Assembly (NCBI GenBank): GCA_024762535.1
Contig: JANTHG010000009.1
Location: 1-37,770 of the forward strand
DNA length: 37,770 nt
Direction of reading: 5' to 3'
Source: Calditrichaceae bacterium
GTDB lineage: Bacteria > Calditrichota > Calditrichia > Calditrichales > Calditrichaceae
Shown: one piece after another, positions 8,675-14,171 of the stretch
Layout of the letters: every line of letters begins with the position of its first letter
Numbering within the stretch: position 1 is the stretch's first letter
Notes under the pieces: generated by a model
The model's database searches: none
Told to the model about the DNA's origin: nothing
The model's input: only the letters and a program-made list of their open reading frames with translations
Translations under genes and position numbers: made by a program

Positions 8675-9577
8675 TTGGGATATCAATTGCATATATATTG
8701 TATTTCGGATATACACGTTGATTTTACGGAAAATGCGCTCTGGATTGCGAATCTTTCAAATACGGATTTTATGAATGATACACTCATTCTTGCCGGAGAT
8801 GTGGCGCACGATCTGGCTTTGCTTCAGCAAACCCTGCTTGAGTTAAAATCCAAATTTAAGCATCTCTTTTTTGTACCAGGCAATCATGACCTGTGGGTAC
8901 ACAATTCCGAGTGGCGCGACTCCATTGAAAAATTTCACGGTTTACTGAACTGGTGTCGTGATGAAGGAATCGATGTGGAACCTCAGTTATTGGACGCCGA
9001 AGGAAGAGCTACCGTTTGGATTGTTCCGCTATTTTCATGGTACAGCGCCTCCATTGAAGACAGCCACAGTCTGTATTGGCCGAAACCGGGCGAGGATGCT
9101 GAAAATTTTCCCTGGGCCGATAAGTACTACATACGCTGGCCGGATGCACAGCAGCCCTTTGACGCGGCCTCCTTTTTTGCGGATTTCAACAAACTCGGGT
9201 TACTGCAAACACAGGGTTTGCCTGTCATTTCATTTAGCCATTTTTTACCCAGGCAGGAAATGATGTTTGGTGACAGTCTTAAACCGGACCCCGAAAAAAT
9301 CCGTAAATACGACCGTAATCCCAAGTTCAATTTCAGCCGGGTAGCCGGTTCCGGGCTCATTGAAAGGCAAATCAGAGAACTGGGTTCACACACGCATGTG
9401 TATGGACATCAGCATATTAATCGTGATAGGGTTCTGGAAGGTGTGCGTTACGTTTCGCACTGTCTCAGTTATCCGGCGGAACGCAAGCTGGGTATGGCAA
9501 AAGGAATAGAAGCAGGACTAAAAAGAATCTGGAATACAGATGAATCTGCATCCCGGAACATTAACTCACCTACATAA
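8675..9577 (+). CDS. Calcineurin-like metallophosphoesterase
   Basis: About 300 residues with the full metallophosphoesterase signature in order: SDIHVD (DxH, about 11-16), LAGDVAHD (GDxxxD), VPGNHDLW (GNHD), SFSHFLPR, and HVYGHQH (GHxH). These bind the two-metal centre that hydrolyses phosphoesters; the substrate cannot be told. An in-frame stop (8672-8674) directly precedes the TTG at 8675. The first ATG lies after the essential DxH, so the start must be a non-ATG codon: TTG 8675, or TTG 8687 behind GGGA. The last 8 bp overlap the convergent response-regulator gene. Confidence 0.85.
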   Translation: MGYQLHIYCISDIHVDFTENALWIANLSNTDFMNDTLILAGDVAHDLALLQQTLLELKSKFKHLFFVPGNHDLWVHNSEWRDSIEKFHGLLNWCRDEGIDVEPQLLDAEGRATVWIVPLFSWYSASIEDSHSLYWPKPGEDAENFPWADKYYIRWPDAQQPFDAASFFADFNKLGLLQTQGLPVISFSHFLPRQEMMFGDSLKPDPEKIRKYDRNPKFNFSRVAGSGLIERQIRELGSHTHVYGHQHINRDRVLEGVRYVSHCLSYPAERKLGMAKGIEAGLKRIWNTDESASRNINSPT

Positions 9578-9941
9578 TAGAAGCCACCAAATCCTTTAAT
9601 TCCATAATACCAAAGGGCTTCTTTAAAAAATATTGATTAGGAGGCATCTCTCCGGCCAGCGAGGTGTTGCTACGATCAAAGCCCGACATAAAGATAACTG
9701 TTTTATTCGGAATTAATTCATTGAGTTTGGCAAAGGTTTCCTGGCCGGACATATTGGGCATGAATAAATCGATTAGAAACAGATCTACATTTTCTTTATG
9801 CTGCTCAGCAAGTTCAATAGCCTGCTGTCCGTTTTCTGCTACTATGGACTCTATCTCTAACATGCTCAATACTTCGGTAATAATTTCCCTCAATGATTCT
9901 TCATCATCAACTATTAATGCTTTTTTTATAGTATCTGCCAC
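9570..9941 (-). CDS. Single-domain response regulator (CheY-like receiver)
   Basis: 123 residues forming only a receiver domain. It has the acidic pair DDEE (about 12-15), the phospho-acceptor Asp58 in LFLIDLFMPNMSG, the MSG Ser position, and KKP (Lys108). No output domain is attached, so it acts by protein-protein contact or in a phosphorelay. The GTG start at 9941 has AGGAG seven bases upstream. No kinase is adjacent; the nearest candidate is the REC-kinase at 34.8 kb. The 3' end overlaps the metallophosphoesterase gene by 8 bp. Confidence 0.9.
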   Translation of the reverse strand: MADTIKKALIVDDEESLREIITEVLSMLEIESIVAENGQQAIELAEQHKENVDLFLIDLFMPNMSGQETFAKLNELIPNKTVIFMSGFDRSNTSLAGEMPPNQYFLKKPFGIMELKDLVASIM

Positions 9942-12985: not shown

Positions 12986-13024
12986 AAAAACGGCCGGTGG
13001 AAATTATATTCCGCCGGCCGTTTT
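12986..13024. terminator. Strong rho-independent terminator after the peptide transporter gene
   Basis: A long GC-rich stem pairs AAAACGGCCGG.GGAA with TTCCGCCGGCCGTTTT around an ATTATA loop, with A and T runs on both sides. It can serve the plus-strand transporter gene and the minus-strand lexA operon, which converge here. Confidence 0.9.
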
Positions 13025-13082: not shown

Positions 13083-13523
13083 TTACAATTCCCGGATGAC
13101 CGTGTGCACTTTACCGATGATTTCAAATCCCGGCGTTTTACTGTCCACTATTAAGGGGGCATTAAAGGAATCGGTTGTTTCGAGCCGTATGAAGGGATTG
13201 TTAAAATATATTTTACGAATAATAACTTTTTCGCCCAGCCGAACCGCGGCAATGTTGCCGCTGCGCACTTTTGCGTTTAAGTCAACAGTCAGATAATCGC
13301 CATGGAAGATGCCGTCACCTTCCAAACCGTTATCCAGAGTGCGTACCGTCAGCGAACGCTGATCCAATTTGCGAAAATTACGGATCAATTCACCCAGCGA
13401 ATAATTCCCGCCGGAACCATTTGTATCTTCCAAATGTACTTCGCCGAGTAAGGGAATATTATAGAATTCCTTGTCAGCGGAAATAGAAATCGGTTCTGCA
13501 GAGGTCTTTTTATGGTGCATCAT
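13083..13523 (-). CDS. LexA C-terminal-domain-like protein lacking protease residues
   Basis: 146 residues. Residues about 22-146 align by eye along the whole C-terminal domain of the LexA encoded directly upstream: IPLLGEV with VPLIGRV, GIFHGDYLTVD with GIFEDDLVVVN, EKVIIRKI with DEVTVKRL, and FEIIGKVHTVIREL with WSIQGKVVGLIREI. There is no helix-turn-helix domain. The Ala-Gly cleavage site is replaced by VHLED, the catalytic GDSM by TLDNG, and the catalytic Lys position holds Arg103. It thus looks like a dead S24 fold. Its ATG lies 3 bp after the lexA stop, so it must share the lexA promoter and is probably translationally coupled. LexA dimerises through this domain, so the protein could bind and modulate LexA (inference). 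No known family name is assigned. Confidence 0.85.
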   Translation of the reverse strand: MMHHKKTSAEPISISADKEFYNIPLLGEVHLEDTNGSGGNYSLGELIRNFRKLDQRSLTVRTLDNGLEGDGIFHGDYLTVDLNAKVRSGNIAAVRLGEKVIIRKIYFNNPFIRLETTDSFNAPLIVDSKTPGFEIIGKVHTVIREL

Positions 13524-13526
13524 GGC

Positions 13527-14141
13527 TTAATGAATTTCCCGAATCAGTCCGACTACTTTACCCTGAATGGACCACTCGCCTTGTGGGTAGATGTCATCAT
13601 AGGCAGGATTTTCAGCCTTTAAATAGACCTGTTTTTGATTGGTAATCAATCGCTTTACCGTAACCTCGTCGTTAAGCAACGCCACAATAATTTCTTTGTT
13701 ATGGGCGGAATTGGTAGAATTAACAACCACCAAATCGTCTTCGAAGATACCGGCGTTAATCATGCTGTCGCCACGAACCTTAAGAGCAAAATAGCGGCCT
13801 TCGGATTTGATCATGGCACGGGGAATGGGGATATAGCGTTCCACATTTTCCTGAGCTAATATGGGGAATCCCGCAGCCACCCTTCCGATGAGCGGTACAT
13901 TCACTTCCGTTTTGCTGCCCGGGGCATATTCGGGATCGATGATGCGCAAACCGCGGGCCGATGAATCTTTCTCCAGAAAGCCTTTACTGACCAAAGCATC
14001 GATATGCTTTAGAATGGCAAATTTGGATTTGATATTCATGTGATTTGCTAATTCCTGATAAGAAGGCGGGTAGCCTTTTTCTTCAATATTGCGGGCAATG
14101 AGTTTTAACAATTCTTTTTGACGTTCGGTTAAGGTTTTCAT
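13527..14141 (-). CDS. lexA: LexA repressor (SOS regulator, S24 autoprotease)
   Basis: 204 residues, the normal LexA length. The winged-helix DNA-binding domain covers about 1-68 (LTERQKELLKLIARNIEEKG, YPPSYQELANHMNIKS). The cleavage site is Ala90-Gly91 (RVAAGFP), the nucleophile is Ser126 in RGDSM and the general base is Lys163 in VTVKRL. All functional residues are intact, so RecA-stimulated self-cleavage should work. The promoter carries a perfect palindrome, TGTAC-N4-GTACA, at the expected operator position. The LexA-like gene follows after 3 bp. Confidence 0.96.
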   Translation of the reverse strand: MKTLTERQKELLKLIARNIEEKGYPPSYQELANHMNIKSKFAILKHIDALVSKGFLEKDSSARGLRIIDPEYAPGSKTEVNVPLIGRVAAGFPILAQENVERYIPIPRAMIKSEGRYFALKVRGDSMINAGIFEDDLVVVNSTNSAHNKEIIVALLNDEVTVKRLITNQKQVYLKAENPAYDDIYPQGEWSIQGKVVGLIREIH

Positions 14142-14157
14142 AATCCATCCTTTTAAA

Positions 14158-14171
14158 TGTACCAGAGTACA
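14158..14171. promoter_or_regulatory. Putative SOS box (LexA operator)
   Basis: Perfect 14-bp palindrome TGTAC-CAGA-GTACA, 17 bp upstream of the lexA start codon and just downstream of its -10 box. A further TGTAC half-site lies at 14209-14213, upstream of the -35. The form differs from the Gram-positive CGAAC-N4-GTTCG box but keeps 5-N4-5 spacing. LexA binding is inferred from position and symmetry. Confidence 0.65.

Follow-up and report, generated by a model that had tools for sequence, protein, structure and literature searches.

A catalytically dead LexA-domain protein encoded behind lexA is conserved across Calditrichota and may modulate LexA

Few bacterial repressors have been studied as thoroughly as LexA, which is commonly regarded as complete with RecA alone. 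What, then, could be the role of a second LexA-like domain encoded immediately behind lexA? We addressed this question at a locus of a Calditrichaceae bacterium, located in a window of 37,770 nt (the whole stretch of DNA that was analysed). Here, lexA (13527..14141, minus strand) is intact and canonical, encoding a protein of 204 amino acids with helix-turn-helix (HTH), Ala-Gly cleavage site, catalytic Ser (GDSM) and Lys (TVKR), which reaches 210.6 bits against the NCBIfam model TIGR00498 (cut-off 111) and matches Pfam LexA_DNA_bind as well as Peptidase_S24 (E=2.3e-35). The second gene (13083..13523, minus strand), in the following referred to as the partner, shares the frame of lexA, starts 3 nt past its stop codon and encodes a 146-aa protein, which profile, fold and conservation throughout the phylum mark as a catalytically dead S24/LexA-CTD protein. 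Both open reading frames as well as the 3-nt gap were found where a preceding sequence-only reading of this DNA had placed them.

That reading had proposed an S24/LexA-CTD fold for the partner, on which Pfam, profile searches and the predicted structure all agree. The protein matches Peptidase_S24 (E=1.2e-9, 38.3 bits, cut-off 23.3) and, over residues 11-145, the lexA model TIGR00498 (E=1.1e-9), in the latter case with 38 bits and hence below the cut-off of 111. BLASTP against the neighboring LexA gave 22% identity (E=2e-4), and a profile of partner homologues matched LexA chains of the PDB (best E 2e-12) and UmuD’. Structure prediction of the partner alone by AlphaFold2 gave block means mostly >90 pLDDT for a core spanning residues ~55-146, and Foldseek assigned this model to the LexA CTD and UmuD’ (1ay9/1umu) with a probability of 1.00 and E ~1e-6. 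According to these predictions, about 42 disordered N-terminal residues are followed by a helix (43-52, LGELIRN motif) and an S24 beta core (57-146), including a C-terminal strand at residues 133-143. As claimed before, a DNA-binding domain is lacking: in the Pfam scan, LexA_DNA_bind (winged HTH) matched LexA, but not the partner. A chance open reading frame or the absence of an S24 fold is ruled out by the Peptidase_S24, PDB LexA profile and Foldseek matches.

With regard to catalysis, the profile alignment placed G66 of the partner (codon 13326..13328, minus strand; motif D64-N65-G66-L67) in the column of E. coli LexA Ser119 and R103 (codon 13215..13217, minus strand) in that of Lys156, thereby restoring neither residue of the dyad. 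The loss of the serine was thus predicted correctly, whereas the motif given for it was not, as GDSM aligns with DNGL instead of TLDNG. Among 29 partner homologues, the Ser column is occupied by Gly (14), Ala (8), Arg (3) or, once each, by Thr, Ser, His and Gln; the Arg postulated in place of the catalytic Lys is present in all 29. The cleavage site is missing as well, with neither Ala-Gly nor Cys-Gly in the N-terminal part of the window partner and of 26 of the 29 homologues; the three exceptions (L023, L024, L026) are also devoid of the dyad. Judged by its sequence, the partner is a pseudoprotease, and the simplest reading would be that it has been inactive since before the Calditrichota families split.

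To define its distribution, 40 Calditrichota genomes, 23 of them near-complete, were searched with a partner profile, yielding hits in 33 genomes, including 22 of the near-complete ones. lexA was detected in 32 genomes, each of which also contains the partner; the 33rd partner genome (G020) contributes a 23-residue partner fragment alone, apparently at a contig edge. The proposed check of the neighborhood in relatives was positive: lexA is immediately followed by the partner in the same orientation at 27 of the first 30 loci as well as in G034 and G039, giving 29 genomes in total, and in two further ones (G017, G018) two genes intervene, all of them being part of a row in which neighbors overlap or abut. 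The loci of G032 and G020 are truncated at contig ends. Neither lexA nor the partner was found in G029 (one contig, 92% complete), and G034 of the same genus harbors both; G029 might represent a loss of LexA-type SOS control. The named relatives belong to the Calditrichota, some of their records being listed under Calditrichaceae and Caldithrix. A single-protein query of genome contigs gave no match, and an alignment of seven sequences was needed to find these named records.

The profile was also run against 385 genomes, about 345 of them from other phyla. Outside the Calditrichota, the partner was not found in the sampled genomes, the best matches being LexA-length proteins with at most 93 bits, whereas nearly all Calditrichota partners scored 139 bits or more (fragmentary or divergent matches in G034 and G039 scored lower). 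A phage origin was rejected, as the viral contigs scanned contained no relative and phage records gave a single weak, partial match (E=2e-3). Membership in a defense system was likewise set aside, since the PADLOC models did not match the partner. Between close pairs, dN/dS values of 0.06-0.21 were obtained, and chance is excluded because the partner is conserved phylum-wide and subject to purifying selection. The gene is real, phylum-wide and under selection.

Where does this gene come from? The sequence-only reading regarded it as a paralog of the very LexA it follows, which our phylogenetic analysis did not support. The partners form one clade of their own (100/100), separate from and not nested inside Calditrichota LexA, at the end of a branch of 1.44; a joint clade with Calditrichota LexA is neither required nor rejected (p-AU 0.45), and a grouping with UmuD is not rejected either (p-AU 0.46). 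With the partner profile, some LexA proteins of other phyla reached up to 93 bits vs. up to 49 bits for Calditrichota LexA. Branching within the partner clade broadly tracks that of LexA, and pairwise distances of both proteins are correlated (r=0.85), which shared vertical descent would give as well. The partner is possibly a relic of an older LexA, in line with the model of LexA duplication and replacement, a known evolutionary route (PMC8565304). This route, together with the long branch, could even suggest a vestigial LexA that has lost its N-terminal half and is now decaying without function. The low dN/dS values, open reading frames intact throughout the phylum and invariant residues, however, render such a scenario hardly credible, and purifying selection and conservation largely refute a decaying pseudogene.

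How does the partner relate to known S24 proteins? With the LexA CTD (PF00717/TIGR00498) it shares the fold, the C-terminal strand and the GI..GD turn, but it is a separate gene product from its own clade and lacks HTH, Ala-Gly site and Ser-Lys dyad. Similarly, UmuD/UmuD’, the accessory subunit of polymerase V, consists of an S24 domain on its own (about 140 aa) and belongs to an SOS context, but UmuD has retained Ser, Lys and the cleavage site and is encoded together with umuC, whereas the partner is without dyad and cleavage site. In the window, umuC is not found beside the partner, and umuD-umuC is located on another contig; the option that the partner itself is the UmuD of an umuDC system was rejected, as the genome has its own UmuD-UmuC. 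The partner consequently fits the definition of neither LexA nor UmuD and is an S24/LexA-fold component of the SOS system.

Its match to the UmuD’ fold could nevertheless point to a UmuD’-like polymerase manager, i.e., a constitutively “processed” subunit of a Y-family polymerase, for which a gene with a LexA box of its own is often present in the vicinity. Several genomes indeed carry DUF6504-dinB immediately downstream, preceded by a LexA box, and the LGELIxN helix of the partner resembles by eye the DLNxLL helix of UmuD. Yet, the partner is linked to lexA and not to a polymerase. Because DinB of the neighbor type (>350 bits) was undetected in several partner-bearing genomes (G000, G009, G015, G025, G028, G032, G036) and the window genome (G000) holds a separate, intact UmuD-UmuC pair on contig C29, such a role is less likely and appears distinctly improbable to us.

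The linkage to lexA extends to the regulatory signals. A LexA box, TGTACTCTGGTACA (14158..14171, minus strand; TGTAC-N4-GTACA palindrome), precedes the start codon of lexA by ~16 nt, and relatives feature a box at the equivalent site 5′ of lexA. The exact TGTAC-N4-GTACA pattern occurs at three sites in the 3.27-Mb assembly, the two besides that of lexA being intragenic; a reversed control pattern has none. A search for a further box between lexA and the partner found none. Past the partner, RNA folding predicts an intrinsic-terminator hairpin (12987..13024, minus strand) as putative end of the lexA-partner transcript, with -27.7 kcal/mol and a z-score of -4.76 for a 98-nt stretch; the 3′ neighbor within the window, a transporter gene of convergent orientation, might use this hairpin, too. 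With a LexA box 5′ of lexA only and a terminator behind the partner, we infer from the DNA that both genes are probably co-transcribed and co-expressed from the LexA-box promoter and induced by damage, which supports the shared promoter assumed earlier. The form of the box varies by family in the lexA upstream regions of G000-G039, with TGTAC-N4-GTACA in f1, f2 and f4 and TGAAC-N4-GTTCA-like boxes in f3, f5 and f6.

Further hints came from the parts of LexA that the partner has retained. Leaving aside the ten C-terminal residues, the folded core shares an identity of about 0.21 with the cognate LexA, compared to 0.52 over these ten. In sliding windows, it peaks at residues 135-146 (0.52) and 69-80 (0.49), where Calditrichota LexA and LexA of other phyla share 0.57 and 0.56, respectively, a conservation at about the level seen for the partner. 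The last 12 residues, IIGKVHTVIREL (13086..13121, minus strand), belong to the C-terminal strand and are the most LexA-like stretch, while the second peak includes G71 (codon 13311..13313, minus strand), which aligns with Gly124 of LexA/UmuDAb, a column occupied by Gly in 28 of 29 homologues. For UmuDAb, dimerization was shown to need the C-terminal ~12 residues and Gly124, the equivalent of the LexA dimer interface (PMC11332147). The best-kept stretches of the partner, i.e., the C-terminal strand and the Gly124 loop, thus appear to coincide with dimerization determinants of LexA, whereas the active-site columns, highly conserved among LexA proteins, are lost. This lends new, suggestive support to the earlier idea of a domain kept for binding, not cleavage. 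The link is suggestive and not a proof, since it was drawn post hoc and a GI..GD turn is a frequent feature of the S24 family and its fold; the retained stretches may instead serve homodimerization or the S24 fold alone.

Based on these findings, our favored explanation, to which we assign just short of an even chance, is that the lexA transcript also yields the partner, a LexA-CTD pseudoprotease acting as dedicated LexA modulator by heterodimerization through the CTD face. Following co-transcription with lexA, the partner would pair with the C-terminal domain of LexA via the retained dimer face, and the resulting heterodimer would comprise one DNA-binding domain and one uncleavable half. This would represent a gene-encoded version of the inactive LexA-LexA/CTD heterodimer, which arises in E. 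coli as an intermediate of partial cleavage (PMC3834820). Upon damage, both proteins would be induced; LexA would be cleaved and the partner persist, possibly keeping newly synthesized LexA off its operators until diluted or degraded and thereby determining how strong the SOS response is and how long it lasts, with the direction of these last steps being the least certain. Consistent with a modulator are the co-occurrence with lexA in 32 of 32 genomes and the joint absence from the one-contig genome G029. Against this reading, an AlphaFold2 model of fused LexA and partner (a natural in-frame read-through open reading frame) reached a pTM of 0.55 without confident placement. Moreover, Calditrichota LexA retains every residue that normal cleavage requires, so that a stoichiometric CTD partner would need tuning not to cripple repression. 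The more specific version, in which an obligate, co-transcribed and uncleavable CTD pseudoprotease heterodimerizes with LexA and the LexA:partner ratio after cleavage sets SOS strength or memory throughout the phylum, is plausible, but we hold it rather tentatively.

The main rival to the heterodimer is binding to the RecA filament. As decoy or brake, the partner could dock uncleaved in the groove of RecA*, compete with LexA and damp or end the SOS response by negative feedback. Of the E. coli LexA forms, solely the isolated CTD of LexA(K156A) bound RecA* stably (PMC3834820), and the invariant Arg at the Lys column would fit such a role; RecA-bound LexA and UmuD are among the Foldseek matches of the partner model, a compatibility by fold only. 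On the other hand, the partner resembles LexA least around the active site and in the cleavage-loop sequence, the regions by which LexA touches the RecA core, and the genomic tie observed is to lexA. We consider a RecA decoy unlikely.

Small proteins acting on SOS repressors have been described, e.g., gp7 of phage GIL01, which is devoid of a DNA-binding domain and was shown to act on LexA (PMC4551915), an action only proposed for the partner. Unlike the chromosomal S24 domain behind lexA, gp7 is phage-encoded and its homologues were reported only in related tectiviruses. A functional parallel in bacteria is DdrR of Acinetobacter, a small modulator of the S24-family SOS repressor UmuDAb (PMC11332147), which differs from the partner by being divergently transcribed and Acinetobacter-specific. 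GIL01 gp6 is likewise a shortened homologue of LexA and works side by side with it (PMC6182141), but mainly comprises the DNA-binding domain of LexA, i.e., the opposite half. By analogy to gp7 and DdrR, the partner could be a co-repressor or chaperone that binds LexA homodimers and boosts operator binding or protects them from cleavage, with no 1:1 CTD heterodimer. Such proteins do raise operator binding of LexA or UmuDAb (PMC4551915; PMC11332147), and the obligate linkage to lexA would fit. However, these precedents refer to function only, and no sequence feature of the partner favors tetramer-type binding; we regard this option as quite unlikely.

The data suggest that the Calditrichota possess a built-in LexA modulator with no described counterpart in the literature searched; no description of such a lexA-adjacent gene was found there, although literature coverage was incomplete and this is hence no proof of absence. 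In this phylum, a second, dead LexA domain resides behind lexA, and neither gene is kept alone where genomes are assessable. If the partner modulates LexA, the Calditrichota would feature an additional conserved layer of SOS control, and S24 pseudoproteases would join gp7 and DdrR as means of tuning the SOS response. The cultured species Caldithrix abyssi offers an experimental entry point.

Several further observations concern the surroundings of these genes. The two genes inserted in G017 and G018 (L066:5159-6734, L067:4739-6314) encode TcmP (TIGR04474) and a DUF5131 protein and match the PADLOC candidate defense models PDC-M41A and PDC-M41B/M30B; owing to their position in the lexA-partner string, this candidate defense pair would be under LexA control. 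At L060:6449-7980, L063:2776-4802 and L077:5838-6122, lexA-partner is followed by a LexA box and by genes encoding a small DUF6504 protein and DinB. For the UmuD-UmuC pair on C29 (L114:5381-7091), the S24 dyad is intact and no LexA box (≤1 mismatch) was found nearby. Finally, the window contains a metallophosphoesterase-like gene and a small response-regulator gene at 8675-9941, and similar response-regulator genes are located near lexA-partner-dinB in G002, G007 and G008, so that the neighborhood of lexA and the response regulator may be old.
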